In this document: positions 1-61,887 of the stretch, one piece after another
How the letters are laid out: the number at the start of each line of letters is the position of its first letter
Numbering within the stretch: the first letter of the stretch is position 1
Source: Chondrosia reniformis
Lineage: Eukaryota; Porifera; Demospongiae; Chondrillida; Chondrillidae
DNA length: 64,000 nt
Direction: 5' to 3'
Assembly (NCBI GenBank): GCA_947172415.1
Contig: OX359198.1
Span: 6,293,401-6,357,400 of the forward strand
Position numbers and translations under genes: made by a program
Notes under the pieces: generated by a model
Databases searched by the model: none
Told to the model about the DNA's origin: nothing
The model's input: the letters and a program-made list of their open reading frames with translations, nothing else

Positions 1-3000
1 GAATTAAAGAGACTCACTGATTTGTCAGTCTCACAGAATACTACCTTTATTGTGGTAAACAGCCTGTTAATACAAGATATGAATGCCAATAATGTTATCC
101 CTAATAGTCTGACTTCAGCCCTTCCTTCATCATCATTCTACCCAGACACCATTCCACCACAACTTGCTAACTTTAGTCTGGACTTGAATTCTGATGTGCT
201 CTCCTTGACATTTGATGAAACTGTAGAAGCATCTTCCTTGAATGTAACATCCATCTCGCTAGTAAATGGAGGTGTTAACTGGACTTCTTTGTACCAGCTC
301 ACGGGAGGAAATCAGACTTTGGAAAATTCAACTGTTGTTGAAATTACCTTGAACAAAGTGGATTCTGATTTCATTCGATTTTTGGACGATCTTGCTGTAA
401 GTGCAGAGAGCACTTTCATTATCATAGAGAACTACACAGTGGAGGACATGAACGCAAATCCAGTTGTGACAACTGTTATGAGAGCAAGTAATTTCATTTC
501 TGATTCCCAAAGTCCTTATCTTGTAGAATTTGATTTGGACATGAATGAAGGACTGCTGATAGTAAGCTTTTCAGAAACAGTAAATAATACATCACTCATG
601 GTAACAGCCTTGACTTTACAAAATGTTGCTTCATTTGGTAATGAATCAGTAACTCTGACAGGAGGACGTTCTTTATATGATGACAACACCACAATTACAA
701 TAGAATTAGACAGCGGTGACCTCAATGAGATTAAAAGACTAAGAAATTTGGCTACAGCCACTACTTCCACTTACCTCTCCCTGACATCAGCTGCAATAGA
801 AGACATGGCTGACAATGCAGTGATCAGGGTTCAGATGTCCAATGCAACAATGGTTGACCAGTACACAAATGATACTAGTCCTCCAATCCTAGTAAACTAT
901 GACTTTGACTTGGATGATGCATTGCTTTATCTGACCTTCTCTGAGACAGTTGACTCTGAAACTGTCAATGTGACCCAGTTCACCTTTCAATCTGGCAATG
1001 CCTCTTCTCTCTCTGATAACTCAACTGCCAATTTTACAGAATCTACTGTGTCGTACACACTAACAGAATCCTCTCGAGTTATAAGTAGTCCCAGTACAGT
1101 TATAGTGTTGAGGATTGGTAAGTTTGATTTGGACAATATTAAGAGATTTCCCGATCTTGCAGTCAGCAATGAATCTACTTACCTATCCATTACACCAATG
1201 GCAGTAGCAGACATGTTTGGAAATGAAGTTAGTCAGATTGATATGTATGCTCCTCATAGGGTAGCCATCTTTACACAAGACCAGACCAATCCATCATTAG
1301 AGGAATTCAGTCTCTTCATGAATGACTACTTGTTGTCTTTGACATTTTCAGAGACTGTTAATGTAAGTTCCTTAAATATTACTGGTATTACACTAGGGTT
1401 TGGAGTAATGGGACCAACTCACACATTGGAATCGCCTGAGACCTTTGCCCTGACTGATGATGATCCAGTTGTAAATATACTCCTATCACCAGATGATATG
1501 AATATAATAAAGAACATCTCCTGGGTAACTGATCTTTCAAATACCTATATCAGTTTGGAGAATTTCACAATCGAGGACATGGCAGGTCGGGAAATGGATG
1601 CAATCGCTAACCATCCAGTAGTCACTGCTACACCTGACACCTTTGGTCCAGTTTTAGAGAGCTTCACTGTAAATCTGTCCAATGAACTTCTTGTTCTTTA
1701 TTTTAATGAAACAGTTAATTCAACCTCTTTGGATGTTACAAGACTATATCTTATGAACAATAATAATGCTACTGATACAATGCCTATCAGCCTACGTGGC
1801 AGTACAATACTCTCACCAAATGGACCCATTCAAATCGTACTCCTTGGATTTGATGCACTAGAAATGATCAAGTTAGACCAAGAATTGGCTACTTCAGTTA
1901 ATGACACTTACTTGAGAATTGCCTCTTCAGCAGTTTATGATTTGACTGATAATGTGAATTTTGAGGAGGTGATCCAGGTAGAGAATTTCACTTCAGATTT
2001 TGTTAGTCCAGAGCTGGTGGCTTTCTCCGTGGATTTAACAGAAGCTATTTTAATGTTGCTATTCAATGAACCTATTAATGCAAATTCTGTTGATGTCCCT
2101 TCCATCACCCTCCAATCAGCCGCCAACATCACATCGGGTGGCACAGCTTATACTCTTAAGGGCGGTAATGTGACTAGCATGAATTCTCTTCTACTTAGAA
2201 TACTTTTAGATCAGGAAGACCTTAATATTATAAAGCGGCATGTTGACTTGCTCAGAAATGTATCCACTACTTATATCAGTTACCCTGAGGTCTTCCTCAC
2301 TGATATGTATGGCAACTATATCACTCCTGAAGATCCTGAATCTGCCTTTAGAGCTACCAGTTTTATAGATGATGTTTTGAGACCTCGACTGCTTGGTTTT
2401 AGCATAAACATGACATCCGGAGGGCTTATGCTTACCTTTAATGAGACAATGGATGTTAGCAGTCTGAGCTTTACTAGTATTTCATTTCAACTCTCACCAA
2501 CTCCAGTTGATCCTTATTACAGCTTCCAACTTACAGGTGGAGAGCTGCTATCAGGTATAGACAACGCAGAGGTCTACTTCAGGCTGACCAGATTTGACTT
2601 GAATGAGCTAAAAGTGAGAGGCATTGGTAGATCAAGCAATATGATATTCATCATGATCTCAAATATGACTATAACTGATATGGTAGGCTTGTACGCCTTC
2701 CCTGTCACCAGCCTCAACACTGTCTCCCCTGAGCCCTTTGGTCCAGATGAGGATATTCCTTATTTGGAATCCTTTCAACTGGACCTCACTAGTGAGGAGC
2801 TTATACTAATCTTCTCAGAAGCCATTGAGGAGGTGGATATCAGAAATGTTACACTACAATCAGTGAGGAATATTAGTAATAATTTTTACTTTGAAGAATA
2901 CAGTTTAACTGACAGTGAAAGAATAAGTGCTGAAGATAGATTAATTACTGGATATGATGGCTCTACCTCAAGGGTAGCACTGATCATGCTGTCCATCAGA

Positions 3001-6000
3001 GATCTTAATGAAATAAAGCGACTAGAAAGTTTAGCCATTTCGAGAAGAACTACCTTTTTAAGGTTAATACCAGAATCATTCAGTGACACATCAGGCCACA
3101 TGGTGATGGAAATATTTGAAGATGATGCACTTAGAGTGGATCCACCTTACATTGGAGATATGAATAATCCTGAGCTTCTTAGTTTTTCCCTTGATCTCTC
3201 TGATGACATCCTATCTCTCACCTTTTCAGAGACGATGAACTCATCCTCTTACAATGCATCTGGATTTACCTTCTATGGAGGATTTCCGATTGAGGGGTTT
3301 GACTCCTATACTCTCACAGCTGGAATGGTGTTGACTTCTAATGCTCCTGTAGTGGACATACAACTTGGGTTTGGTGACTCCAATATAATCAAGAACCTTA
3401 CACAATTGGCTGTAAATGAGAATACCACTTTCCTTTCCTTAGAACCATTTGGCATTAGGGATATGGCAGGCAATGAAGTTGTTAATGTTACTCTTCAAGT
3501 TGCACAAGGAATGTTTAGTGAAGATTTAAAGCCTCCATCCATTCTTGCCTTTTTAGTTGACATGAATACTGGTCAAATAACCTTGAGTTTTTCTGAGACA
3601 GTGAATGTAGATTCACTAAATCTTACTAGCATAATCATTCAAAATACCTTTACACTGAATAATAACACAGAATTCGTTCCATTAACAGGAGGAGCTATAC
3701 AGTGGTACAACTCTGATGTAGTTAGCTTTGATTTTAATTTTGATGACTTGAATGACCTGAAGTCCTTTAGAGAGCTAAGCACCAATGAAAACAACACATT
3801 TTTGACCTTCAGAGAAATGGCCTTTGCAGACATGAATTTTAATACCATCAGCTCAGCTTACACTGTGCCACCACTTTCAGGTGAAGTTGTTGTAAGAGTC
3901 ATCCCAGATACTAACCCTCCCTCGCTAGTCTATTTTAACTTTGATCTTAATTCTGGCATACTGACTCTGGTCTTTAATGAAACTGTTGCCATAGAGACCT
4001 TTGATCCTACTGCCATAACCATCCAAGAAGGAAGCAATGCTACACTGGGAGGAGAATATTTTACTCTTTTGGGTGGAGAAGGGGTAAACTTGCTAGATGT
4101 CACTACTGTGGAGGTTAATTTAACCATTGTTGATCTCAATGAGATTAAAAGACTCACTTCTCTAGCAATCTCCCCTGAAACAACTCACATCTCTTTTCCT
4201 TCAACACTGGTCATGGACACAAATGAAAACTCCATTATTCCTAAATCTAATGAGGATGGAGACAATGTTCAAACCTTTGTTTATGATTCAACTAATCCTC
4301 GGCTGGTATACTCAGAGCTAGACATGGATACAGGACAGCTTCACCTTGTGTTTGATGAAACAGTAAATGTAAGTAGTTTTGATGTTGAAACACTCACATT
4401 ATACAATTCTGATGTCAATTCCACTGAAGACCTGACACTTACTGGAGGTTCCTATCCAGCTACTGATTCACATGAGATTGTAATTCAGATTACATTTGAA
4501 GATTTGAATGAACTCAAGAGAATACAAAGTTTATGTGCCTTTGACCAAATGGGAAATGACTGTTTCCTGTTCTATGGTGAGATGACTTTATTTGACAATG
4601 CGGGAAATTACTTTACTCCACCTGTCAACGGCACTCCAATGCTGATTGACATGTACGTACCAGATACCTCTCCTCCATCTCTTGTAAGCTTCACTGAATT
4701 CAATTTTGTCAACGAATGCATCACTCTAACTTTCAATGAAACTGTTGACCTGTCAACATTTGATGCTGTATTGATAAGTTTTCAGTCATTTAAGGAGCTT
4801 ATAGCCATGGATGAGTCCATCACACTCACTGGTGGCATTCTACAAGGACCAGACACTCATATTGTCACACTTAAGTTGACCACACCAGACATTGACAGAA
4901 TTAAAGCCACTACAAATGTCTGCCTAAGAAGAAACACTTGTTGGCTAACGCTAGCACTTGGAACTGTCCTGGATATGTCTCAAAATCCTGTGGTTGCTAT
5001 TGACAACACAAACGCAGAATATTCTTTGACTTTCATAGAAGATTCCATACCACCAGTTCTTGAGTACTTTGATCTTTCAATGGAAGACCAATGCTTGACA
5101 CTCTATTTTTCAGAACCAGTGGACCTTGAATATTTCCTGCCACAAGAAATTATTCTGCAGTCGTCACAAAATGTGAGCATGTCAGAACAGATTTGGTTAT
5201 CAAGTGGAACTCCCATACAAAGTAGTTACGGTAGACAGATTAAAATCCTTTTGTCTCCAGAAGATGTAGAAAGAATGAAGGCCTCTACATTCCTAAAGAC
5301 GGAGAATGACACTTTTATTTCCTTCTCCTCACAGCTTGTTACTGATGCAGCCTTCATGGGAGGAGATACAGTTTACAAAGGAGTACCCATAGTGGCCATT
5401 AGCAATGAAGCAGCACAAAGAGTGAGGGCTTACTATGCTGATGAAACAGGTCCACTTCTTCAATATGCTCATCTTGATCTGAACACTGATCGACTTGTTC
5501 TCTCTTTTAATGAGCCACTGTTGCCTAGCAACTTTGTATTTGAAAGGGTATCTTTACTTTCTTCAGAAATGGCTCCCAGTATAAATGTTACACTTACTCC
5601 TGGTCAACTGGACCCTCTTTCCATTGATGGAGTGACAGAACTCATAATTTACCTCTCACCTGATAATCTTATCCTTTTGAAGGTAGACCCTTCCATTGCA
5701 ACTGGAACAAGGAACACATTTGTTATGCTAGCTCAAGCTGCCCTCACAGATACAGCTCCAGAACCAAATGTGGAACAGGTTCTTCCTCTCTCGGTGTTCA
5801 CTCCAGACATTACACCAACAGTCCTAATGGAGTATACATTAGACCTAGATGAGGGAATTATTTATCTAACTTTTAATGATATTGTTAACACTACCAGCTT
5901 CAATGCCTCAGAAATCCGTGTGCAAAGTGATAGCTTCCTTATTCCTGGACTTTTCCACCAATTAAGTGACAGCTCTTTTACCAATAGTTCTCATGGATAT

Positions 6001-9000
6001 GAAGTTGACATATTTCTGTCAAATTTTGACTTGAATGAACTTAAAGCTAACTTGTTCTTAGCCACGGATATTTCAAACACTTGGCTCACCCTAACAGCCA
6101 TGGCTGTGGATGATATCTATGGTACAGATGTGATTGCTACCACTGATGGGAAAGCATTGCAGGTCTCTAATGTGACCCAGGACTCCACGCCTCCTGAATT
6201 GGCTGAATTTGTCTTGGATTTGAATAGCAACTTGCTTATTCTGACATTCTCTGAAACTATAGAAGATGACTCTAACTTTACTGTGGATTTGATTGCACTT
6301 CAAAACCTTGGAAATGAAAACTTCACAGTTTACCTAGGCATAAGTCCAGATTCTGAATATATTCAAAGAAGCAGAACAGTTATTGAAGTCTTGTTAGTGA
6401 ACACAGATGTTAATCAGCTTACTGCAGATAGATCCATTGCTACTAGCAGTAACAATACTTTTATTAGTATTGGTGACAGCGCAGCTTTTGATACAAGTGA
6501 CCTTCCCAATGTGGCAATCAATTACACAGATGCTCTGAGGGCTAGTGCAATCATTCCTGACAGAATGCCACCCACCTTGCGTGATGCTCAATTGGATCTG
6601 ACTGATGATATCCTTTCCCTGACATTCTCTGAGACAGTTAATGCAATCACTCTCAGTCCATATGCAATAACTCTACAAGACAGAGCTACAAGATCCTCAG
6701 AAGATACCGCTGTTACCCTAACTGGAGGAAATCCCAGCACTGTTGATTCAACAGTAGTGCAGCTTAATCTTACAACCCAAGATGTAAACAGATTGAAAGA
6801 AATTGCTGACTTAGCTACTTCAGTAAATAACACTTTCATCACATTAACTAGCACAGCAATTGAAGACGTAAGTGGAATACGAAATACTGAGATACCTGAT
6901 GGAGAAGGTGTGATGATTTCATATTTTAGAGGGGATAGCATTCGCCCATCCCTCCAAAACTTTACACTTAATCTCACTTCAGAGTTGCTTACGTTAACCT
7001 TTTCAGAAACAATGAATGTGCTATCGCTTGACCTTCAGGAATTTACTGTTCAAAATGCTAATATACCAACTGTGTCTTATGAGCTAAGTGGAGGGATTGT
7101 TAGAAGCAGCCAGCAGAACTCAACAGTTGTGGTTATTGAACTGACTAGAAGTGATTTGAATGGATTAAAAAAGGATTTTAGCCTTGCCACTCAACTTACT
7201 AACACCTTTCTCTCAATCTCATCTGGTAGTGCTGAAGATGTGTTTGGAAATCCAGTTTTCCCCACCCAGATACCTGCTCTAGGCTTTACTGAAGATCTAA
7301 CTGCACCTGCACTTGAAGCTTTCACCCTTGATATGAATGCTGGTGTCCTAAAGTTGTCATTTTCAGAAACCGTTGCAGCTATCACCCTCATGGTACATAG
7401 AATATATCTTCAAAATGACATGACAACACGTAGCAGATTTGTACAACTTGATGATGGTGACTTCCTCACTGATCCAACTGATGTGATATGTATTAATATC
7501 ACTAACAGAAATCTTGACAATCTTAAATTTTATTATGATTTAGCAAAATCTATCAGCACTACGTTTATAAGTTTTGCAGACTTAATTAGAGATACAAATG
7601 GTAACATTGTGCAATCCATTCCAAACTATAATGCTCAAATGGCTGCAATGTTTATTTCAGATATATCATCCCCAAATCTACTTCAATTTAACCTTGATTT
7701 GGACAATGGACAGCTTCTGCTATTCTTTGATGAAGTCATACGTAGCTCTAGTGTTGAACCTCTTGAGCTAACCTTTATTGCCTTTCCAAACAGCTCCACA
7801 ACATATTCCCTTACAGGAGGGACAATACGTGAAGGAAATTCAAGTGCTATTCAAGTTACAGTAACTGAAGATGATCTTAACTTTTTGAAAGCATTTGATG
7901 ATTTAGCCTCTTCTAGAGATGACACCTATATCACCTTGACTGTGTTGGCAGCTAGAGATATGTGCGAGAATTTTGTTGCTGAAATACTCCCTGAAAATGC
8001 ATTACAGGTTAACAGCTATCAACCAGATATAACCAGACCGCGGATTGTGTCATTTGATGTAAACCTTGACAGCAATATCTTACTATTAACTTTCTCTGAA
8101 ACTGTGAATGCCAGTAGCTTTGATCCAACACAACTTCTATTTGTATCAAACTCATCTTCCTCTCCTGATGCAGTCTACAGTCTCACTGGTGGTAATTTTG
8201 ACCTTAGGAATTCACCCACAATCTCCATTGAGCTAACTGCTGATGACACCAATACTATTAAAGCTATTGGAGGTCTAGCTGATGATGCAAGTACAACATA
8301 TCTCTCATACAATGAATCCATAGCAAGGGATATGGCTGGTCTATCTGTAGAGCCCAGAGATACTAATGAGGCCCTTCCTGTATCAAACTACATACCAGAT
8401 ATACAAGGACCCATTCTCTATGCATTTGATCTGGATGTCAATAGTGGTGTGCTTGTCCTAAGGTTCAATGAATCTGTACATACTGATACATTGCGAGTAG
8501 ACTATATAGTACTTCAGTCACACTTTGACAGAGGGGGTGAAGATTTCCAAGAGTATCGCTTGAGCACAAATTCATTTGTAGATACCGTTGAAAACCTGAC
8601 AGTTTTACAAGTGCAGCTTGATGGTATAGACATCCGTAACATCAAGACAAGATTTGGTTTGGCTACAGAAAGGAACAACACATATTTGAAGTTTGAGAGC
8701 CGGGCTGTTTATGATACTTCTGGGAATCCTTCTGATGATGTCATTCTCCTAGTGAGTAACTACACTTCAGATACAACTGGTCCAACTGTTCTGACATGGT
8801 CCCTTGATTTGAACAGCGAAGTGATCACTGTCAACTTTAATGAACCAATCGCAGTAAACACAGTGGATGCCACAGGGTTGATAGCTCTTAGTCATCCAAA
8901 TAGCACATCCTCACATCAGCTTTCTGGTGCCTCAACTGATGGAAGTGATGACTTCTTCATCCAATTAACTCTGTCAAGATCAGATTTGAATGTCATTAAA

Positions 9001-12000
9001 ATGATTGAAGATTTGTGGACATCTAACGAGACAGCGTATCTCACAGTTCAAAGCCATTTCATATCAGATCAAGCAGGTCAACCAGTGCAACCAGCTGTAA
9101 GAATTCCTGTCACTCTTTTCATTAGTGATGCCGAGAGACCATATCTAGAAAGCTTTAATTTAGATATGAACAATGGAATTTTAACATTAAACTTTTCAGA
9201 AACTGTGAATATTACAACTTTTGATTTGACCCAAATTACCCTGCAAGAGATTTCAAATACTTTCTTAACACGTGTTCCCAGAATCCATAACTTAATGAAT
9301 GGCACTATCATCTCAATTGGTGATGTGGCAACTGTGATTGTACAACTCTCTGAAGAAGATTTGAATGTAGTTAAATTTCAAGAAATTGGCCGTAACAGAC
9401 AGTCTGTGTTCTTGGTGATGACAGATTTGACTGTGGAAGACCAGAATGGAAATAATAACATTCCATTGCTTAATGGGGTTAATCCAGCCTCCCCTTACAA
9501 TTTTGTACCTGACACTACAAATCCAGTATTAAGGTCATTTATACTCAATTTGACTTCAGATGTTCTTCTGTTATCTTTCTCTGAGACAGTTAGAGTGTCA
9601 TCTTTTGATGTTACAGAAATATTGCTATTAAATAATGCTAATGTGACCACCTTTTATCAGCTAACTAATCTCAGTTACACACCATCACCAAATGACCCAA
9701 ACCTTGTGGTATTACTTTCAGAGTATGATTTAAACAACCTAAAGAGATTAACAGATTTGGCAACCCTGGAAAATGATACATTCATTTCATTTTCTGTCAA
9801 TCTGGTATCTGATATGGTTGGGAATCAAATAGAAAGTATTTCCTTGAATGTATCCCAAATGGCATTTGAAGTGTATCCAGATGAATTCAGACCCATTTTG
9901 AGAGGATTTGACCTAGATCTCACTGCTGAAACCCTCACTCTCACTTTTAATGAAACTGTTAATGTTGATACATTTGATGAAACCCAAGTCACACTGTTTG
10001 AAGATAGGTTTAGTGACTTCTATACTCTAACAAACGTCTCCATCAATCATCAGAATGATCCAATTTTGGTTCTGCATCTAGTTCGATATGACTTGGATAT
10101 CATTAAGGAAAAGTTTTATCTTGCCGTGGATAATGACTCAACTCTCATTTCCATCACTAATCTCACAGTGCAAGACATGAACTACAACTTTGTAGAGCCT
10201 GTACAGCAGGAAGATCAACTCATGGTGACAGTTTTCACAAGAGATATGATCAATCCATCTCTAGACTTCTTCTATGTAGATTTGGATGCTTCAACATTGA
10301 CCCTATTCTTTGATGAGACTGTGAATGCAGATAGCTTGGATGCTAGAAACATCACTCTAGTTAATGCTTATGAGAACTTTACAGCAATGTTCTCACTGAC
10401 TGGAGGTACTACTATCAGTTCTAATGGTTCTGTAATTGTTGTTAATGTCACCAAGGAAGATTTGGATTTAATCAAACAAGATAATGCTCTCTTTACTTCT
10501 CTAGAGGATGCATTTCTTTCAATACGTCCTGGACTTATTACTGATATGTTTGAAAACCCTGTTAATGAGATTTCATTGGAAACAGCAAAGCAAGCCGCCA
10601 ACTATACTTCAGATACAACTGATCCCATTCTAGAATCATTTGATTTGGATATGAATCTGGGAATCCTCCATATGACCTTTTCTGAAACTGTCAATGTTGC
10701 ATCATTTGATCCATCAATGCTCACCCTTCAAGCAGTTCAAGAGACCAATTCAAGTGAAGAAATGGTCACTTTAACTGGTGGTTATACCAACCTGACCACT
10801 GAGAACCACACTATAGTTCGCCTACTGTTAACCACTGGCGATTTGAATGCCATCAAAGCATTACCTCTACTGGCTACCGGACCAGTTGATACTCTCATCA
10901 CTCATACACAGTTTTTGATTCAGGATATGAATGAAAACAGGGTAGTTGAGAAACCAGATGGAAACGGACTCTTTGTAAGGAACTATACTGAAGACACTAC
11001 ATCTCCCTTCCTTGATTCATGGTCAATTGATATGAATCGAGGATTGCTTCACCTCACTTTTGATGAACCCGTAAACCACTCAACCTTTTTTTATAATGAA
11101 TTTATCCTTCAAGATTCGTCAGAGCCATTACTGGACTACCATAGGCTGACTGGTGGAACTATTCCTGCAGTATTCAGTCCATTGATGACCATCAATGTCA
11201 CATTCGATGACCTTAATCAAATTAAAAGAAAGCAGCTATGTACACATCGCAGGAAAATTGAGGATTGTTACATAATCTTCCCAAATGTCACCCTAGAAGA
11301 TATGAATGACAATGTCTTGACTGTTCTGAATATTAATGAAGGTCGTCAAGCTGAAGCTTATATTGATGATACTACTCGACCAGTACTTGATGATTTTGTG
11401 AACATAAATCTTCGAGAAGAGACAGTAACTTTGAGGTTTACAGAAACTGTCAATGTATCCTCTTTTGATCCAACTCAACTAACTTTAAAGAGGTTCTCAT
11501 TTGATCCTGGTGCCCCACCCCCTTATATTTTGTACAACCTCACTGGTGGCTATGTAATCACAAAGACGGATAACACCACTATAACATTCATTCTAACATA
11601 TGAAGATGTTAACTTGCTCAGAACTGATCCAAATACTTGTGTAGGTGCTGATGGAACTGACTGTTTTCTGCAATTTACTGAATTGCTTGTATCTGATATG
11701 GCAGAACTACCAGTTGAGCCAGTCAGAGGTCTTCCTGGAACTCTTGTTGGCAAGGCCAGTCAGAATATCCTCGACGATGTTCCTCCTATGCTGTTGAATT
11801 TTACTTTGGATATGAACACCGGAGAGGTTGTCCTGACTTTCAATGAAACTGTGGATTACCAGACCTTTGATTCAACTGGCATCACATTCACTTCAACACA
11901 AACTGGAAATCAAACTTATACCCTGACTGGAGGAACACTAATAACTGACACTCATTCCAGATTTATCGAGTTTAATCTCTCCCATTCTGACATTATAGGA

Positions 12001-18000: not shown

Positions 18001-21000
18001 TATACTCCTGATAGGATAAAACCAACTGTTGTTGATTATGTCATGGACATGAATTCTGGAGACTTTATTTTGACCTTCAATGAAGCAATTAACATTACAA
18101 CTGTTGACATTACCTCTTTTATTCTTCATGACTGCTGTTACTATAGCAACCAAAGTATGGAAGCTCTGATGAACATGACATTTAGTGACTTGAATACTAC
18201 AGTAAATGTCACTGATGGCAATAGCACAATGTTTAACATGACTGATGATTCTTCCAGCATGTTCATAGAGTATGTCTCAGATGTTCCTCTCTTCACTTAC
18301 AACATTTCAGGAGGTACCTGCCACCAGACAGATAAGATGGTAATAAGATGTTCTCTCACTGTTAAAGACCTAAATGAAATAAAAAGACGTAGGATTTGTG
18401 CTAATGAGAATGATGGTGAAGATTGTTGTTTAGGCAGTGTGGGGGACCCCATTGAAGATTTGGCTGGAAATGATATTGAGCCCATATTTGACAATTGTGG
18501 TCTACAGCCAAGTCGATACATTTCAGATGAGAATAGACCTTACCTAGTGGAATTTAGCTTGTTTGATCTAAATAATGGCCAGCTTGTACTCACATTCAAT
18601 GAAACTGTCAATGCATCCACAGTGGTTCCAACTGCCATTACCCTCCAGTCCTTCTATCACATGCCTGGTGTGAGTCTAAACCTACGAGGAGGGACTGTGC
18701 TATCTGGAGATGGTACCAGTGTCAGAATTGAGCTTGTTAAAGAAGATTTAGATGAAATTAAGAGGCAAAACCTCCTCTGTACCAATATTGCAAGATGCTG
18801 GGTGTCCTTTACGGAGGACCTGCTCTCTGATGTTGCAGAGAACATTGTTCTACCAGTTCCACCTGATGAGGCAGTATATCTGATAAACTTTATTCCAGAC
18901 ACTACCCCTCCAATTCTTGAAAACTATGTGCTCGATATGGAGAATCAAACACTCACTCTAACATTCAATGAACCAGTAGTGGCATCCTCTTTTATGGCCA
19001 GTGCACTTTCTTTTCATTCTTCTCAGAATGACCTAGAGGTCGCAGTGCAACTCTCCTCTGCTACCAGTGATGGCCCCCAAAACCTAACCATTGTGGTCAC
19101 ATTGGATGAATCAGATGTGAATGCACTCAAGACCTACCCATCACTGGCCACCAGTGTCAATGATACCTTCATCTCGATCTCTGACAGCCTGGTCACAGAT
19201 ACAGCTGGTACTAATAATGCACCAATTGATGCTAACTCAGCACTTATGGCTTTTGACTATGTTTCTGACATTTCTCCACCTTTTGTCACTGATTTCACAC
19301 TTGACCTTGACAGTGACCAATTAGTACTTCATTTTAATGAGCCAATCAATTCATCTTCACTCAATTTCCAGAGTTTCATGATTGTATCACTAAATAACTC
19401 TAGAAGATTGATTGGTGGAGTCATTGATAATTTTGTGGAAGAGTTTGGTGTTCTTTTCCTCACCATCAACCTTACTTGGAGTGACATAGACTATCTTAAA
19501 TTGTCCTCCAGGCTAGCCACTGACTTGTCCAATACACAGCTGGCATTCAATTATGCAGCTGTCTATGACATGGCTGATAACCCTATTGATGCAGTGTCGA
19601 GATATAATCCTATTTTTGATGGTAACTTCATAACAGACACCACAAAGGCAGAGCTCATCTCCTTCCAACTTGACATGAATGAGGGCCGGCTTCTCCTCAC
19701 CTTCAATGATGTGGTTATCTCATCGACTTTGTACACGCGTGCCTTCACTCTTCAGGACCTTTCAGATCAAGGTGAATATTTTGTCAATCTGTTGTATGAC
19801 GGCACATCCATCACTCCCAATGGTCATTACATGACTATTGTCATTGACAATACTGACTTGAACCGCATCAAAGTAAATCCTGAATTGTGTACTAGTGTCA
19901 ACAATAGCTTTCTTGCAATGAGAGCAGAAGCATTTGAGGACAATTATGGCAGAGATGTTGTCGCTGTGACTGTTCACAGAGCTCTCCAGGCTTCTAGATT
20001 TATCCCAGATGAAACCAGTCCTTTCCTGACTGGCTTCTCCCTCGATATGGATACTGGAATGATCTTCTTGACATTTAACGAGATTATCAACGCGAGCACT
20101 TTGGACCCACAGGATGTTGTCCTACAAAGCAATGGAAGCATTGATATGTCTAATTCTTACTACCAGCTGCAAAATAGTACGGTTCTAAGCCAAGAAAACT
20201 CCATTGTCGTGGTAGTACAGATTGGAATAGATGACTTGAATGAAATTAAATTTCTTTATGATTTGGGTACATCTGAAGAGAACTCCTATCTGTCTTTCTC
20301 AGAAAATCTCACCAGAGACATGAATGATAATCAGGTTGTGCCCATCTCCAACCAGACAGCAGCTGGTCATTTGGCCGGTGCCTTTGTGGAGGACAATACT
20401 CCACCTGAACTGGTTAGCTTTGTCATTGACCTTACTACTGGTGTACTAAATTTGACATTCTCAGAGACGGTAGATTCCTTGACTCTGGACCCAAATCAGG
20501 TCACCATCCAAGGAAGAATGGAGAGATTGAGTTTCCACACACTTCAGAATAGTGCTGGTTTGGAAGAAAACTCAACTGTTGTCACTGTCTATATTGCTAC
20601 TGAAGACCTGAATATGATCAAGTCACTAGAGGATGTAGCTACCGCTATCTCTAATAGTTTCATTACTATATCTAATGAGACCATCAGAGACATGAATGGA
20701 AATCCTGTGGAGGCCATTCCACTGGATGTTGGTCTTCAGGCCTCCGGATTTACTGGTGATACTATTAGACCAGAGCTAACTGGTTTCTCTTTGAATTTAT
20801 CTTCAGAAATTCTAACACTGTTCTTCTCTGAAACCATTAGATCTTCCACATTAGACATGCAGAACTTTATCCTTCATAGTTTGGAAGATCTTCATCAGTC
20901 TTCATCATCATATGCCCTTACAGGAGGTCTGGTCCTTAGCGGAAATCTACCAGTTGTTGATGTGGAGTTGACTACAGCTGACCTCAACGAGATCAAGCTG

Positions 21001-24000
21001 CTCACAGATCTTGCTACCAACCGTTTCAATACATTCCTCTCAGTCGTAGAAGCCGCTGCTAGAGATATGTCTGATCTACCGCTGATAGCAATACGACACA
21101 TTGAAGGACTTTCAGTCGCCATGCTGACTCTAGATCTAGTGCCTCCAGAACTAGATGGCTATACATTGGATATGAACACTGGACAACTCATATTAAAATT
21201 CTCTGAATCCGTCAATGTAACATCACTTAATGTTACTGAGCTAACCATTCAAAATGAAACAGCCTTATTTGAAGACATCTCAGCATTCACTTTAAGTGTA
21301 ACATCTTTCACAACTTCTGAAAATGGTCTGCTCATTACCATCCAGCTCTCTGACGATGATCTTAATGAAATCAAAAGGTTAAATACACTGGCAACAATGG
21401 ATAGTACAACCTTTATATCATTTGAGTCGTCCTTGATATCTGACATGAATGGAAATCCCATTATAGCTGCACCTTCCTTGAATGCCTCTAATGTCCAGGT
21501 ATATATTGGTGACACTAATCCTCCGAGGGTCCTTGAATTTGACTTGGATCTGACTAGTGGGATACTAACTTTGAGATTCAATGAAACTGTCATGGCAGCT
21601 ACTTTAGATGTAATGGGCCTAGCAATACAGTACTCGTTGACTGATGATTTGTATTCATATTCCTTCAATCCTAATTCTTCCTACACTATTTCTGAGGATA
21701 GCACCACTATTATAGTACAGATGGGTCAGTCTGACTTGAATGAATTGAAACGTCTCAGAGAGGTTGCAGTTTCTTTTAATTCCACCTTCCTCACTATTGA
21801 TGGCAGCAGTATTATGGATATGAACGGCAACCCTGTGGTGATAATAGATGTACTCGCTGCACTTCCTGTGACATTATACACAGAAGATACCATCCAGCCA
21901 AGCTTGATTGACTATTCACTGGATATGGACACAGGTGCACTGGTATTGACATTCTCAGAGACAGTTATGTTTGAGTCTGTAAACCTCTCTGCCTACACCA
22001 TCCATCCTAGACCGGGAGGTGTGGCAATGTCACACACCCTCTCTCCACTAGCTTCAGCTGTAGTGTCTGATCAAGATGATACTGTTGTAATGATAGAAAT
22101 AGGTATAAGAGACTTGAATGCTATCAAGCGACTCTATGCATTAGCCACCTCAGAAAACAATACCTATCTTTCAGTGACTGAGGATGGAGTGCAGGATATG
22201 AATAATCTCACTTTAGATCCCATTCCTGTACCCCAAGCTATCTCAGTTGGATCATATGTTCCTGACACAGGGAGTCCAATTTTGGTTTCATTTTCACTGG
22301 ATCTTAGTAATGAGACCCTTTCACTGACATTTGATGAAGTTGTCAATGTTGATAGCTTTAATGTGACATATTTGACTATACTCTCAGCTCCTAATGACTC
22401 TAATGCCACTGAGATACTGTTAAATGATTATAGAGGCATTAATGAGAATAACTCAACTGTAATTACTATTCAATTGGCCCTGGAAGATCTACATCGGATT
22501 AAGCTTCAGACTGAGCTTGCTGTGAGCACTAACTCAACCTACTTGAGTATTCAGCCAGAAACAGTTGCTGACATGGCACTTGCTCCAAACAGTGTTGAGG
22601 AGAAAGTACTTCAAGTTTATCTCCTTATCGCCGATGTGGTTAGTCCTCAACTGGTAAGGTATGCAGTGGACCTGAATGAGGGTACTCTAACACTGATGTT
22701 TGATGAGCCAGTAGATGTAGCCTCCATTAACTATACCTCAATAACCCTGCTGTCATCCTCCTTGGCTTTGAATGAATCTTTGGGGAATTTCTCAAATGAT
22801 GATCCTCCGTCAAGTTATATGTTGACATCAGGTTTAACAACCAGTAGTAATGGCCTTGCTGTTGTAGTGAATTTAACTCAAGATGATCTTAATGCTATCA
22901 AGCAAATTGAAGGATTGTACATAAGTTTAGATACATCATTTATCAGCCTATCTAGTAATTTCATCAGGGACATGGCAGAAAACCTTATAATGGAACTACC
23001 ACCAGAGATAGCACTTCAAGCCATACTCTTCCTAAATGATACCACTAGACCTGTTTTGTCAAGGTTCAACCTGGATATGAACTTAGGTATACTTACCCTG
23101 GTATTCCCCGAAACTGTCGATGTGACAACAGTGATGTATGCTGGCATCATTCTGCAGAGAAGCTTTAATGTGTCTGGTGACAATCAACAGCAAATGCTCA
23201 CAAATGGCAGCCTGCTTATGATGGAGGATGGAGTAACTGTCGTGATAGGGATAACTCTAGAAGACCTGAATGAACTAAAGAGAAAAGGTATTGGTGTTTC
23301 CATGGATACCTCATGGTTGGCCATCAGTAATTTCACAATTGTTGATATGTTTGATTTGCCAGTGGTTCCATTAATCAATGGTTTATCTGCAAAGGTTGTC
23401 AATATGTTTACACCAGATACAACACCACCAGAACTGGATTGCTTTACTTTTGATTTGAATAGTGGATCCCTAATTTTGTCTTTCTCTGAAACTGTCTCAA
23501 TTTATCAGCTTAATCTAACTGCCATCACACTACAAGACAGAGAGGATGGTATTAACCTTCTTAACCACTATACATTGACTGATGAGAGTACCCTAGTAAG
23601 CCCAACTGGGCCTGAACTAGAGGTTAAACTGAGCTTGTCTGATCTCAATGAAATTAAGAGGCTGACAGAACTGGCAATTAGTCTGAATAGCACTTATCTC
23701 AGTCTGATATCAAGTTTAGCTAGAGATGTGTTTGGGAATCCTGTCACACCCAGGAACTCCACTTCAGCCTTGCAAGCTTGTGAATACATTGATGATGAAA
23801 TTCCTCCCATGTTGGTCAGCTTTGACTTAGATCTGGACAATCAAACACTGATTCTCTATTTCTCTGAAACTGTCAGTGTTTCCTCTTTAGATGTTACCAT
23901 GATAAGGTTGCTTGGAGGATTACAAAATGATTCCTCATACTATCAACTCTCCAGCAGTACAACATTAAGCACAAACGATCCTGTCCTGGTGATTGAGCTG

Positions 24001-27000
24001 AGTATTGAAGATTTTAACAATATTAAAAGATTACCTCTCCTTGCCACCAGTAGAAATGACACTTTCCTTTCCTGGACTGAAGGTGCCATCAGGGATATCA
24101 GCATGAATGATGTGGTACCTGGATTTGGTGAACCAGTTGATGTGTACATTCCTGATCGCAGTAGACCTACCCTGGATTTCTTTGATTTAGACATGGATGG
24201 TGTCTATCTAATCTTGTACTTCTCTGAAACTGTGAATATCAGCTCTGTTAACTTTACTTCTGTCACCATACAAGGCAGTAATGCTGTCACATCAGTACAG
24301 CATACACTGCAAACTGGTAGAGTTGCTAGCCTTGAAAATGGGCCTCAAGTTAGCATAGAGATACGTAGAGAAGATGAGGACGAAATAAAAAGACTCACAT
24401 CTCTAGCCACTGCTGCCTCTAATACCTTTATTAGTATATCACACTACCTCATTGTTGATATGGATGGTAACCAAGTTGAACCTATTTTAAAATCTGATGC
24501 CATTCCAGTGAGAAACTATACATCTGATACTACCAGACCAAATCTGGTCAGCTTTGACTTAGATCTGAACAGTGACAGCCTGCACCTTGAATTCTCGGAG
24601 ACAGTGAATGCCAGCTCTCTCGACATTACCAGTATTACACTACAAGATGGTGTGGAAATTGACAGTAATGAGACATCTTATGTCACACTCTCTGATAGTT
24701 CTGTTGTCTTGATGGATGGTCCAGTATTGAATGTTAGTCTCAGCCGCTTTGATAGAGATGAGATCAGAAGGCTGACAACCCTTGCCACTAATATGGGGGA
24801 TACCTTCATTTCAATAAGTGAAGCAGGGATATATGATATGGTAGGCCTACCTGTGAATGAAACAGCTAACCATTCAGCAATACCGGTGTCTATCTACACG
24901 GAAGATTTGGTTAGACCTTACTTAGAGAATTTTGCTTTGGATTTATCTTTGGAAGTCATAGTCCTGTCTTTCAGTGAGACTGTAAACATTGGATCCATTG
25001 ATCTCTCCCAGCTGACACTCACCAATGGCAGGTCAGCTAACGTCGCCTTAACTGGAGGAATCATTCTTAACTCAGATCACTCCAGTATCACTGAAATCCA
25101 ATTGACAGAACCAGACCTAAATGACATTAAATTCTATGCAGACCTAGCTGTTAATAGAGAGACATCTTTTATAGTCTTTACTGAAGACCTGTTGATAGAT
25201 ACGAATAACAACAAAGTCATTCCTCAAACAGAGCCCATCCAGGTATCCGATTATGGAGAAGACCGTTTACCACCATCTCTGATCATGTTTGATCTAGACA
25301 TGAATGCTGGGGTTCTAAGTCTCTACTTCTCAGAATCAGTCAATGCTGACTCCCTCGATGTACAGCAAATCACTTTGCTATCCAGGCCTTCCAACCAAAC
25401 TGATGTTCAAAGCTACAGACTAACAAATATTCCAACTCCTGGATCTTCCACAACAAGTCCAAATGGTACTAACATTATTATTAACCTTAGTAGGACTGAT
25501 TTGAACTTTATTAAACAGCTTCTTGATTTAGCTGTCTCAAATGAAACAACATACATCAGTTTTACCATGCTAGCCATTCATGATATGAATGAGAATTATA
25601 TCAATGAATTAGAATCTAATGATGCTATGCGTGTGAGAGTTTACACTGAAGATACCACAGCACCTATGCTGCAGTCTTTTACACTTGATTTGAATACTGG
25701 CATACTTGATCTCTTTTTTGATGAAACAGTCAATGTGTCATCAATTGTTCAGGATGGACTTACTTTGCAGGATAGCAACTTTGGGTATTCCACTAGACTT
25801 CCAATAAACAGCGTTATTTTCTCAGATAGGAATTCAGCTGTAGTTTACATTAACATCACTGACAGAGATCTTAACTTGTTAAAGAGTAGTACCACTTTGG
25901 GTACGGCATTCAATAACACATTTCTTGCCATCCTAATGACATACATCAGAGATATGAATGGTAATCCAGTGGTACCAATCTTTTCATCTGATGCACTGCA
26001 AGTCAGTAATGTAACTGAAGATATTGGCAATCCAGAGTTAATCTTCTTCAATTTGGATATGAATAATGAAGAATTGCAGCTAATATTTTCAGAATCAGTT
26101 AATATATCGTCTCTGGACCCAACTCAGCTGAGGATTGTTTCTCCTTCCTCAGGGCAGCAGCATTCACTCAGGGGCTTAGCAAGTGAACCAGCTTACAATG
26201 ATGAACAAAACGTCCTAACTCTACATCTTCTCAATGATGACCTTAATGTAATTAAGTTTCTTGAGTCCCTAGCTACCAATGCTAATGACACCTTTTTATC
26301 ATTTACCAGCAGTCTTTTAGATGACAATTCTGGCAATGAGGTTATCCCTATCATTAACCAACAAGTAACAAACTATACTGCAGACACTACCTGTCCAAGG
26401 CTATGCCCATCAAACAATACACTAGACATCACCACTGGCGAACTGTGCCTACAATTTTGTGAAACTGTAAATATTTCCAGTTTAGACTTTCAGAGCATCA
26501 CTCTGTATAGCGATCCTAGTCGGTTGCTAACTCCATTTGCTCTCACTGGTGGGACTATGGTCACCATGGAAAACTCAGATTTGGTCTGCCTTATGCTGCA
26601 ATTTGCTGATTTACAGGAGATTAAGGCTGAAACAAGTCTTGCTTCATCTTCAAACAATGCTTTTGTTGATCTGGAGATAGGCGGTATTCTAGACATGTCA
26701 GGCAATGAGTACTGTAATGATACGACACCAGTTCAAGTTGAAGTGCCACCGGATACTGAACAACCCACTTTGGAGTCTTTTGAAGTTGATTTGGATGCTG
26801 GCATCCTCACTCTGACATTTAGTGAATCAGTCACAAATGGTTTGATTAATGGGATTTTACCTATTTCTTGGACTCCAAGTTTGAATCTGGATCAAATCAC
26901 AATTTGCAATTGGGACTGTAATTATTCTGTTCCTTTGACTGGTGGTACAATATCAATTCTTCAGCCTCCTAATATTCTGAATGTAAGCTTATTAGATGAA

Positions 27001-29724
27001 GACTTCTACGCCATTCAGAGCATTGCAAATTTGGGTACTTCTCTAAATAATTCTTACTTATCAATCACCAGTGACCTAGCTACTGATTTCTCTGGTAATC
27101 CAGTTGTAAATATCTCCATGTCTGAACCCCTAAGCGTGTCTTCCATCACTCCTGATCAAACCCCTCCAACATTAAACGATTTTGATCTGGATTTAAATAC
27201 CAATCAGCTGAAACTTACTTTCTCAGAGTATGTGAATGATAGCACTTTTAATCCTCTAGGGGTCACCATTGTCGGTGATAAGAATGACACTGTGTCACAC
27301 ATGCTCACTAACAGTACTGCAATGCTGACTGACCTGACGGTTCTCTGCATCATTCTCTCTCCCAACGATGCTAATATGATCCGCACCCTTACTGGTCTAG
27401 CCACCACTCGAGAAAACACCTTTCTTGCCATCAATGACTTGCTTATAGAAGATTCTGGTCAGTTACCAGCCGTGTCTATTGACGTGTCAACAGCTCTTCC
27501 GGTGAGTAGATTCATTAGAGATAACACCAGACCATCTCTTGTCAGCTTCAGTCTCAACTTGTCATCAGAGGTGCTTTCGCTGACATTTGATGAAACTGTG
27601 GAGGCAAGCAGCTTTGTGGAGACACTGCTACAACTGCAAAGTGATCTCTTTGGGTCTCATGCTGTTTCACTGTCAGGAGGCTATGTGGAGAGTATTGAGA
27701 ACACACCTGTTGTAGATTACAGGATCTCTTGGCTCAACTTAAACGACATCAAACGAAATGTCTTGCTAGCAACTAGTGATAATAATACTTGTCTATCTGC
27801 CATGGATGCTGCCATTTTTGATTTAACTCATCCAGGTCCAGGGTCACAAAATCCTTCTCTTAATGCAACTTTGTGTGTAGATGAATTCAATGAGGACTTT
27901 GTACAACCAGAGCTCTCTAGTTTTGGAGTTGACTTGAATGCCAGCTTGCTCTATTTGGTATTTAATGAACCGATGAATGATTCCACTCTTGATGTAACTC
28001 AGATCACTCTGCAAGCAGATAGTCTTGTCTCATCCTCAGAATTACAACAGACATTGACAGGAGGAGCAGCTTTCACTGTTGACCAACTGAGTTTCACCAT
28101 CTCCTTGACACAGTATGATTTGAATGAGATTAAGAGGAAGACCCTGCTATTAAGAAATATTGCCACTTCATATATTAGTTTCACTAGTGATTTGGTATCA
28201 GATACAAATGATAATCCTGTTGTTTCGATTCCTAGAACTGCTGCTACTCCTGCCAGTATGTTCATAGATGACTCTGTTCGACCATCATTGGATAGTTTTG
28301 ACATGGACATGAACACAGGTGAACTTACACTATACTTTTCTGAGACTGTAGATCTCAGTACACTACAATTGGAAAATATTACTCTTCAGAGAGAGTACAC
28401 GTCAGACGATACTAGCAGGCACACACTAACTGGAGGATCTGTTGTGACAAGGAATGACTCTTCTGTGATTGTAGTTGTCCTTAGTAATGACGATCTGAAT
28501 GATTTGAAGACAGAACATATCGGACTTGACAACAGGACACTGTACATTGCTATTGAATCCTCAACAGTTTCTGACATTGTTGGCAATGCTGTAGTTCCAA
28601 TGCTTAATGGTATGAATGTCCAATTGGTCAATAGCTACATAGCTGACTATACTCCACCAAGGTTGGAAAGCTTTACTTTAGATCTTACAGCTGAAATATT
28701 GACCTTGAATTTCAATGAGTCAGTTGACGTCCGTTCTCTTGATATTTCTGAGATCATTATTTCTGAAGGAAGTGGATCAAGTGAACAGTCATACAGACTC
28801 TCAGGTCTGGAAGGTCCTATTACCACTGACTTACCAACACTGACTCTTCGTTTAACAGTTGATGACTTAAATGTACTAAAAATGAGGGAATCCATTGCTA
28901 TTGATTTGAATTCTACATTCATTTCTTTTACTTCAGCCTTCATTGCTGACGTATTCAATAATCCCATAGTAGCCATCCCCTTAAACGACAGCAAACCAGC
29001 TTTGTCCTACTCACCAGACACAATCGACCCCTTGCTGGATGACTTTGATCTTGATATGAATCTTGGAATCCTCACCCTTACATTTTCTGAGACTGTCAAT
29101 TCTACGAGTCTGATTACTAGTAGAGTAACTTTCCACAGTGAACTTATGTCTCCCAATGAATCCTATACATTAATGTTTCCGTATGTGAGTGTTTCCCAAC
29201 CCTCTCCTGTTGTTAAAGTCAGCCTTGATAATGATGATCTGAATATCATTAAGAACCTGACTTCTCTAGCTGTAAGTGAATCTACCACATTCATTCATCT
29301 GGGAAGTGGCGCCATCCAGGATCAAAATGATAATCCTATACAGGAGACCCCAGTGCTCACTGTTAATATGTACACAGTTGACACAACGTATCCATCTCTG
29401 TTGAGCTTTGTCATTGACATGAATATGGGAGAATTGACTCTACATTTTGATGAGACTATTGACCATACAAGTGTCTCATTTGAGTCATTTGGTTTACGAC
29501 ACAATGCAACCATACCTGCTGATTTTGACCCTGAAACGCAGCACATTCTAAGCTCTGGCGTCACTCTTTCTCCCAATGCTCCTACAATTAAGGTCAGGTT
29601 CACCGAAGATGATCTAAATGCCATCAAACGAAAAGAACTCTGCACTCGGAGACTTGGAATTGAAGACTGCTTCCTTGTGTACATCACAGAGGCAGTCAGA
29701 GACATGGCCTTAAACCCAATACAG
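1..29724 (+). CDS. Giant extracellular tandem-repeat protein (about 78 repeats), single exon, 5' end outside window
   Basis: One frame is open from base 1 to a phase-0 splice donor after 29724 (ACAG|GTATGT), so the first ATG at 22 is internal. The protein is a chain of about 78 repeats, counted by hand from one recurring motif (D-L-N-x-I-K), each averaging 125-127 residues. A typical unit runs: D-T-x-x-P, F-x-L-D-L-N-x-G-x-L-x-L-x-F-S-E-T-V-N, a TLTGG-like turn, D-L-N-E-I-K-R, L-A-T-S, N-T-F-I-S, then D-M-N-G-N-P-V. The beta-rich pattern with an FSETVN-like strand resembles bacterial Ig-like repeats of the SbsA/SwmB type; that is an inference from pattern only. N-glycosylation sequons (FNET, NVSS, NVT) are very dense, so an extracellular or secreted role is likely. 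No signal peptide or membrane segment lies inside the window. Adhesion or matrix function is plausible but unproven. Confidence 0.9.
1996..29724 (+). repeat. Higher-order repeat: 18-domain block within the giant protein
   Basis: Variant units recur with a period of 18 domains. Units lacking the usual L-A-T-S and reading like 'IGRSS' or 'IGVSM' are numbers 7, 25, 43 and 61, starting near 2368, 9127, 16069 and 23038. Each is preceded by a unit with a bulky residue in place of the Ala (numbers 6, 24, 42, 60). Cysteine-paired units are numbers 12-13, 30-31 and 48-49. The block length is about 6.8-7.0 kb. After unit 61 the phase shifts: the equivalent pair is 74-75 and the last cysteine unit is 78. 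This suggests amplification of an 18-unit block followed by loss of a few units. Confidence 0.75.
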
Positions 29725-29726
29725 GT

Positions 29727-29770
29727 ATGTATGTATATACGTATATACGTATATGTATATATATATATGT
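29727..29770. repeat. TATG/TATA microsatellite just after the giant exon
   Basis: Short alternating pyrimidine-purine tract (GTATGTATGTATATACGTATAT and on) that begins inside the splice donor of the giant exon. If the donor were not used, reading would continue through this tract for about 15 Tyr/Ile/Val-rich residues to a stop at 29770-29772. Confidence 0.85.
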
Positions 29771-29935
29771 AGCTATTATTTGTAGACTGTATACAAACTG
29801 CATTGGATATTATTACTTATAATGTCTATGGAATCCCAATTTGTTAACATCACTCTTACTACATTACAGATTTTTAGATATTTCATACAAGCAGTTAGTA
29901 ACATAAATATATTTTCTATCTCAATATTTCTGTAG

Positions 29936-47547: not shown

Positions 47548-47981
47548 CTCGACACTCTTAATCCTGGCTGAATCGTTTCAACTTTTCACCTTGCGGTATA
47601 GGTTCATGGTGCAATCGTCGATTCTAGGTTGCGCATTGAGGTGATCGTATGATACATTTCCGAATAAATGTATTCTTGACAGTGGACATACGTAGACATT
47701 CTCATTTGATAAAATCATAGATTTGTGGAATTAGTTAAATGATTTCTAATTTCCAATTTATAACCATTCACGTTTGGCCTAGGTGAGTTGTTTATAGTAA
47801 AAGAACATACGTTCAACATTTACTACAAAATGTAAACGATTTCCGGTGACAGTTACAAATCATCGCCACCGGAAGCCCTGCATGTCTAGGTGCATTCCTA
47901 TATACCTTTATATGTGTCTGTAACCTAAGATAATTCTAACCCTAGTAACGTAATATAGCCAGTGGCAGGCACTATGGCATC
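47548..47981. promoter_or_regulatory. Head-to-head intergenic region between SRCR gene C and the receptor kinase
   Basis: 434 bp separate the two divergent start codons and must hold both promoters. The left half is part of the segmental duplication and so also lies upstream of gene B. The right half (from about 47760) is unique. No clear TATA box or CpG island is visible. Just before the kinase ATG, an upstream ATG starts a three-codon ORF (ATGGCATCATGA at 47974-47985) that overlaps the main start. Confidence 0.5.
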
Positions 47982-61616: not shown

Positions 61617-61887
61617 TTGTAACTTAAATTTTACGCTATTTAGTCAATCCACATTATTAAATAATACCACCTGCTTAGCTAGCTGTAGCATGTTTTCCAA
61701 CATTGAGGTACCAAGCACCGCACAGTACAAAACAAGAAGACAAATTTTGCCTAATAAAGTCACCAATTGTTTATCTAATATGAGATTTTCAAATTTGTGA
61801 ATCACACTCCTTGCATATTTAACAGGCAATCAGCAATCTCTGTCCTGCATGACATACGCCTCAGAATTCTCATAAGTTTTTAAATGT
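61617..61887 (-). promoter_or_regulatory. Gap between FDXACB1 stop and transporter start
   Basis: 271 bp that must contain the 3' end of FDXACB1 and the promoter of the transporter, both on the minus strand. No clear TATA box or canonical polyadenylation hexamer is visible, which suggests a compact, possibly overlapping arrangement. Confidence 0.4.

Follow-up and report, generated by a model that had tools for sequence, protein, structure and literature searches.

The stretch of 64,000 nucleotides from the sponge Chondrosia reniformis analysed here (C10:6293401-6357400, hereafter the window) begins inside the open reading frame of a giant gene, gene P, and the array of immunoglobulin-like (Ig-like) domains encoded by this gene was confirmed to contain an 18-domain super-repeat that is larger than the window. 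The original prediction, made from the letters of the window, was that an 18-domain block had been amplified several times with the order of its variant units kept, and this was borne out by offset scans, by a tree of the units and by the finding that units P21-P49, upstream of the window, lie in the same register. Coordinates of gene P and of two related genes, M and B, that fall outside of the window are given on contig C10.

An 18-domain period in the array of gene P

The open frame at the window start has 9,923 codons in the window and ends at 29772. The whole frame of gene P has 15,998 codons, with an ATG and a signal-peptide-like stretch immediately after the stop codon that precedes it, and a single exon, closing at the probable donor after window 29724, encodes 15,983 amino acids (1.76 MDa). 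When cut at the strand motif conserved around F-S-E-T-V, the translated frame gave exactly 78 complete units in the window, numbered as originally predicted; the array start previously placed at 1996 lies within unit 6, and complete units begin at 136. A profile of the unit recovered 78/78 units and one partial unit preceding them, and the mean identity among window units was 30%. Confident Ig-like structure models were obtained for one unit (predicted local distance difference test, pLDDT, 96.4) and for a triple (pLDDT 95.6), all of them units without a cysteine pair. The complete array has 127 units, window unit U1 being P50, and gene P opens with half a domain, unit 1 being a half unit. N-glycosylation sequons numbered 266 in the window frame as compared with 151 +/- 11 after shuffling, and signal-peptide-like starts, judged by eye without a predictor, were seen at the 5' ends of both P and M. 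Gene P thus encodes a giant chain of small Ig-like domains that is probably secreted.

When units were compared by pairwise global alignment at offsets 1-59, offsets 18, 36 and 54 stood out (z 7.29, 5.44 and 3.4, respectively) against a null maximum of 3.24 (95%) and 3.73 (99%), offset 54 clearing the 95% level only, and the best offset outside this series was 2 (z 1.97). The alignment-based scan with 2,000 shuffles of unit order gave z 5.1-5.4, 4.3-4.5 and 2.8-3.2 for the same three offsets, with all remaining offsets from 1 to 59 below 2.2. With the scan extended to offset 69, offset 68 rose as well (3.53) because the tail of the array is shifted. Leave-one-out phase profiles named the own phase for 28/61 units (shuffled mean 5.1, maximum 14 in 30 shuffles), 33 of the first 61 units failing to rank their own phase first, and among periods 10-26 compared by phase prediction, 18 scored 29/65 and the runner-up, 12, scored 11/65.

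The same grouping was observed in a maximum-likelihood tree of the units, where 11/29 cherries joined units whose numbers differ by a multiple of 18 and 0/29 joined neighbours; the tree came from a quick search in which many branches, including three of these 11 cherries (support <20), were weakly supported. Within clades, 36 pairs were separated by a multiple of 18 (null: mean 4.6, maximum 20 of 1000) and two by an offset of 1. Unit n therefore groups with n+18 much more often than with adjacent units, and neither of the outcomes that had been named as contradicting the super-repeat, grouping of neighbours or a missing off-diagonal at 18 units, appeared.

Offset 18 stayed on top with cysteines masked (z 4.8) and with 21 marker-segment columns dropped (z 4.0), and when phases 6, 7, 12 and 13 were removed from units 1-64 the top offsets were 36 and 18 (4.03 and 3.34, scored without a shuffled null). 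The second half of the unit alone passed the null (4.68). The same-phase signal was uneven, being strong in phases 5-7 and 11-16 and near zero or negative in phases 4, 10 and 17; the strong phases may be under tighter constraint or may already have been more distinct in the ancestral block, two possibilities that are not separable.

Identity at fourfold sites was 0.332 (322/970) at offset 18 and 0.321 for all unit pairs. These sites are saturated, which indicated that the amplification is old, as had been proposed from the divergence of the blocks at the DNA level. The surviving likeness between units 18 apart is an amino-acid signal, the synonymous sites being saturated. Block-pair means ranged from 0.70 to 1.36 with errors of 0.25-0.43, so that the order of the block duplications was not separable.

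Register and marker units along gene P

Units 1-64 of the window are in register in aggregate. For the last of these, register was seen in the tree pairs 41-59, 42-60, 44-62 and 46-64 and in the expected phase of U62-64, which ranked 1, 5 and 5 of 18. A break after unit 61, ascribed to loss of units, had been predicted; a break exists, and the register lasts to about unit 64. In U65-U71 an offset-11 run (55-58 to 66-69) scored 4.02, below the 95% null of 4.67, and the order of U65-U78 taken whole gave p = 0.07 against shuffled orders. Units 72-77 re-enter with a shift of 14 (score 40.7, next 22.4; the run 4-9 against 72-77 scored 4.58, null 95% 4.51), the order of units 72-78 was better than shuffled (p = 0.0015), and U78 is of the phase-12 type. 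The net change is -4 before U72 and -2 before U78, in line with the proposed loss, and U65-71 could include gains.

Outside of the window, profiles trained on units 1-64 placed the out-of-sample units P21-P49 in the same register (8-unit sums 24-74, next best shift <=19.3), with the expected phase first in 10/29 units (chance 1.6). The in-register stretch is thereby about 93 consecutive units long, from P21 to window U64, or 5.2 blocks. In P1-P20 the phase expected from the window-trained profiles ranked first in 0/20 units. P1-P8 matched a different shift, from phase 12 onward (50.9, next 14.9), which placed a phase-12-like unit at the beginning of the array as well as at its end. The 127 units equal 7 x 18 + 1, and the first and last units are both of phase-12 type, although register breaks of +6 or -12, -4 and -2 lie between them; this is perhaps a matter of chance.

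The marker units on which the period was first noticed were recovered with some additions. Two cysteines in the loop after the helix were found in 7/78 units (12, 13, 30, 31, 48, 49 and 78), including all three predicted doublets. The shortened 'IG' units 7, 25, 43 and 61 were correctly placed, except that 43 reads 'IA', and the one-residue-shortened segment is present in 7/78 units, units 4, 14 and 75 being the additional ones. A bulky residue in place of Ala is found at 6, 24, 42 and 60 as predicted, and also at 4, 28, 34 and 74 (8/78 in total). Over the whole of gene P, cysteine doublets begin at P1, 25, 43, 61, 79 and 97, and lone cysteine-pair units are 4, 11 and 127.

Gene M, a head-to-head paralogue with a 23-domain period

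Gene M lies on the opposite strand and begins 962 bp away from the P start codon, and the interval between the two start codons (C10:6274214-6275176) is a candidate shared promoter. The predicted gene opens with a signal-peptide-like exon (ATG at 6274214), which is followed by eight more exons as far as a stop at about 6148100. They join in frame over eight putative introns, all of them bounded by GT and AG, and two donors, at 6205889 and 6152169, have a less favourable exonic part. The predicted product has 41,432 amino acids (4.49 MDa), and the exons are up to 66,689 bp long. The stop codon falls in the middle of a domain (C10:6148100), with AATAAA downstream. Four internal introns (units 180, 234, 247 and 306) split a domain near profile position 45-55 and fall in differing 23-block phases, as though every domain once had this intron and most have lost it.

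Of the 335 units in the M array, four are partial. All 328 start-to-start spacings were within 108-138 amino acids, and the domains are therefore not miscounted. In the offset scan 23, 46, 69 and 92 reached z 19.6, 12.3, 11.8 and 10.7, respectively (null 95% 3.47), and with period 23 the leave-one-out phase was correct for 148/335 units (chance 14.6). Minor peaks at offsets 11 (5.1) and 34 (3.7) indicated that the 23-block behaves as 11 + 12. The same division was seen in the 27 paired-cysteine doublets between units 13 and 312, where 26/26 intervals alternate between 11 and 12 (longest alternating run in 20,000 random placements, 1, which is a crude null). Two loop cysteines are present in 57/335 units, of which 55 occupy 55/59 slots at phases 1, 2, 13 and 14; slots without the pair are units 1, 323, 324 and 335, and pairs outside of the slots are units 79 and 147. 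Fourfold identity at offset 23 was 0.324 and at other offsets 0.313-0.332, that is, the sites are saturated, and the exact spacing has therefore outlived synonymous saturation.

Gene B and an ordered core common to P and M

Phases 11-16 of P aligned in order with phases 12-17 of M (run of six 6.98, null 95% 3.88). The shared core comprises about six domains, including the doublet with paired cysteines in one loop. When M was scanned with the P profiles, 13/14 possible M phase-12 starts were among the 18 best core places and the remaining five of these places were at phase 23; single places exceeded the shuffled maximum (62.5) just three times. The beginnings of the two genes also correspond, P1-P2 onward matching M phases 1-2 onward (90-95, null 63.2).

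In the third gene, B, the Ig-like units are followed by three stretches of IPT/TIG and a single Calx-beta domain. Its units match P from phase 12 onward at B55 (68.3, null 56.6) and from phases 6-7 onward at B109-110 (77-79), and M from phases 13-15 onward at B1-B3 (75-78, null 60.3). The stretches of B that match P or M phases in order are units 1-7, 54-60 and 107-115. These ordered matches across genes indicate that the order of domain types predates the separate growth of P, M and B, and that both block lengths were built round a common segment.

Relatives and comparison with known systems

The genome itself was searched (117,379,552 bases in 15 contigs, C10 having 7,657,449 bases), and the 110 and 146 matches listed for two queries all belonged to one of the three C10 genes P, M and B; the best 46 of 124 and 46 of 119 candidates were scored, and further members are possible. 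Pattern searches, which detect close relatives only, gave 28 matches with 0 confirmed in prokaryote genomes, 11 matches with 0 confirmed and, in a second search, 0 matches in viral contigs, and no relatives in phages and plasmids. In the P pieces, in the largest exon of M, to which the M scan was confined, and in three B pieces, the Pfam matches all stayed below the family cut-offs and were weak and scattered. The bacterial Ig-like domain Big_5 matched 6/78 units weakly (E <= 1, the best being 1.8e-4) and gave 14.7 bits in a 1000-aa piece, the gathering cut-off being 23.6 bits; it was not reported for the halves of the window frame (E <= 0.1) or in the pieces of P, M and B (E <= 0.01). The bacterial S-layer proteins SbsC and SbsB show 14% identity and would have at most the fold in common, and a profile search of PDB sequences gave two weak matches only, neither of them S-layer (best E 0.13). 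A search of the open-access literature found no paper describing this family, which does not prove that there is none.

The organisation resembles that of titin. In the excerpts of two papers on titin (PMC10665226, PMC7427331), the A-band part is described as 11 C-zone super-repeats of 11 domains and six D-zone super-repeats of seven, with 3.98 nm per domain giving an interval of 43-44 nm for the 11-domain super-repeat and with conservation clustering at two super-repeat positions only. Similar to what these excerpts describe, the sponge proteins are giant chains of beta-sandwich domains in which domains at the same place in successive blocks are the most alike, in both P and M more alike than neighbours, and position-specific conservation is clustered at some positions only. 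Unlike titin, they are probably secreted, consist of a single domain family with 18 or 11+12 domains per block, and are encoded by giant uninterrupted exons. The titin domains I-set and FnIII were not found in the halves of the window frame (E <= 0.1) or in upstream P and the largest exon of M (E <= 0.01), and they were absent among the 25 of 35 families listed for the 78 units. Nebulin is an intracellular protein of short helical modules whose super-repeats are repeats within repeats matched to the filament period; the sponge arrays share the repeats within repeats, but not the short helical intracellular modules. The core proteins of sponge aggregation factors are large secreted glycoproteins with Calx-beta domains. 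Gene B resembles them in its one Calx-beta domain, whereas scans of P pieces and of the largest exon of M gave no Calx-beta domain.

Neighbouring genes in the window

Downstream of the giant exon the window contains several smaller genes (Table 1). SRCR and transmembrane exons follow closely and were considered as the C-terminus of the giant protein, an interpretation that was rejected as the primary one because the phases mismatch: the best donor of the giant exon is in phase 0 and the SRCR acceptor in phase 1, and the SRCR gene was therefore read as separate. A signal-peptide-like exon (ATG at about 30380, donor AAG/GTGAGT, phase 1) fits the SRCR acceptor, and a poorer donor of the giant exon could still join the SRCR exons. 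Three SRCR genes have similar transmembrane and proline-rich tails; as compared with the plus-strand copy, the transmembrane exons of the two minus-strand copies are 89% and 94% identical and the SRCR exons 53-54%. A fourth SRCR fragment (45952-45800) is interrupted by stops. The kinase-like gene has a signal-like start at about 48 kb, a transmembrane-like stretch at about 49.5 kb and kinase pieces at 50.7-52.9 kb. The MFS transporter is presumably SV2-like, and the CENP-B-type fragment we take to be probably a remnant of a pogo/Tigger-like transposon.

Table 1. Features of the window and of genes P and B (window positions unless marked C10; a slash in a splice site marks the exon end).
Feature	Position	Strand	Basis or remark
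Gene P giant exon, 47,949 bp	C10:6275176-6323124	+	window 1..29724 is its 3' part (29.7 kb, 62%)
U1-U78, 78 complete Ig-like units of 118-173 aa	136..29724	+	segmentation; profile match
Block 1, U1-U18, phases 1-18	136..6924	+	offset scan, phase profiles
Block 2, U19-U36	6925..13707	+	offset scan, phase profiles
Block 3, U37-U54	13708..20748	+	offset scan, phase profiles
Block 4, U55-U64, phases 1-10, in register	20749..24516	+	tree pairs, phase ranks
U65-U71, register lost	24517..27144	+	consistent phase absent
U72-U77, register back as phases 4-9, four units short	27145..29370	+	phase fit
U78, cysteine-pair, phase-12 type, final array unit	29371..29724	+	truncated by exon end
Cysteine-pair doublet U12-U13	4276..5031	+	
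Cysteine-pair doublet U30-U31	10984..11763	+	
Cysteine-pair doublet U48-U49	18001..18888	+	
U7, shortened IG-type unit	2362..2736	+	
U25, shortened IG-type unit	9118-9501	+	
U43, shortened-type unit	16063-16440	+	reads 'IA'
U61, shortened IG-type unit	23029-23406	+	
U75, shortened IG-type unit	28261-28635	+	
Probable splice donor CAG/GTATGT, phase 0, closing the giant exon	29725..29730	+	inferred from sequence
Small SRCR gene, own signal-peptide-like exon	30380-31541	+	
Small SRCR gene, inverted copy	42476-40921	-	
Small SRCR gene, inverted copy	47062-45301	-	
Receptor-tyrosine-kinase-like gene	47949-52861	+	
MFS transporter gene	57746-61643	-	Pfam MFS_1 on 61161-61643
CENP-B-type DNA-binding fragment	60597-60848	+	Pfam CENP-B_N
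BMT5-like (rRNA methyltransferase family) frame	63148-63999	-	runs off window
Gene B, 121 units in a 15,845-codon frame	C10:7567592-7520058	-	

Discussion

The arrays of P and M grew by blocks of 18 and 23 domains, respectively, and the interpretation that we moderately favour is that the two genes encode secreted giant rods, with the shared core acting as a node and the spacing of the nodes being conserved. As seen from the sequence, the P chain grew through repeated duplication of an 18-domain block, the fourfold sites of which have since become saturated, and the order of domains has been kept since then over about 93 units. M, as predicted, grew likewise with a 23-domain block made of 11- and 12-domain halves, and a core of about six domains in a common order is present in both blocks. 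The proteins may be giant rods that carry N-glycans and belong to the matrix or cell surface of the sponge; in them the core would be the node and node spacing the conserved quantity. By analogy, a titin-like extracellular ruler would be the best mechanism, and at about 4 nm per domain, the value for titin, nodes would lie about 72 nm apart in P and alternately 44 and 48 nm apart in M. That P and M are extracellular rulers of different pitch in the matrix, derived from one ancestral core and expressed from a shared divergent promoter, is a tentative proposal which is possible rather than probable.

Several observations weigh against a conserved and functional spacing. In P, the first half of the unit alone remained below the null (z 2.99, null 3.29), about half of the phases show little phase signal, and the three register breaks imply that gain or loss of domains is tolerated in places. 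In M, cysteine pairs have been lost at slots 323/324, and the junctions are those candidates that combined good sites with the restoration of domains, which means that they are not independent proof. Gene B has no significant period (offset scan, best offset 6, z 2.9, null 3.32) and nevertheless has ordered matches to P and M, and the family therefore needs no period. The lengths in nm assume a titin-like extension, and growth by blocks alone would give the pattern without any function of the spacing.

This last point is the basis of the main rival explanation, which we consider rather unlikely: the super-repeat would be a footprint of array growth by unequal crossing-over of large blocks, the spacing would have no function, and it would differ between P, M and B since the growth events differed. 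Block duplication alone is sufficient to explain the offsets 18/36/54 and 23/46/69/92, and such an origin is compatible with the missing period of B, with the register breaks at both ends of P and with block duplications whose order cannot be separated. It accounts less well for the doublet intervals of M, all 26 of which hold 11 or 12 over 300 domains, for the cysteine pairs kept in 55/59 marked-phase slots despite saturated fourfold sites, and for an ordered core that survives in two genes of different block length. The exactness of the M intervals is unusually clear evidence for a fixed number of domains between nodes.

A role in adhesion or recognition (between cells, in allorecognition or towards microbes), for which diversity of the domains and not their spacing would matter, appears improbable. 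Probable secretion and the many sequons would fit such a role, as would the IPT/TIG stretches and Calx-beta domain of gene B and the SRCR gene next door. Recognition molecules usually gain and lose units, whereas domain order and count are rigid here; furthermore, the Pfam cut-off was unmet in the P pieces and the largest exon of M, and the adjacent SRCR gene looks separate. Finally, a misassembly or a decayed non-coding array is very hard to reconcile with uninterrupted frames of 15,998, 22,295 and 15,845 codons, with eight predicted M junctions in frame with GT-AG ends, with units averaging only about 26-31% identity, which makes assembly collapse unlikely, and with a quality value of 69.8 for the primary assembly as given in an excerpt of its description (PMC12181767).

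M, with its predicted 41,432 amino acids, would be longer than titin, the length of which is about 35,000 amino acids. Spacing-matched super-repeats are known from muscle giants; here they are found in an animal that lacks muscle, in proteins that are probably secreted, and Chondrosia reniformis is a sponge without a mineral skeleton. Two neighbouring genes with exons of 48 and 67 kb have different block lengths and a shared core. The question of whether block length itself is selected would thereby move beyond muscle biology, and it is testable by comparison across sponge species and by imaging of a single protein.

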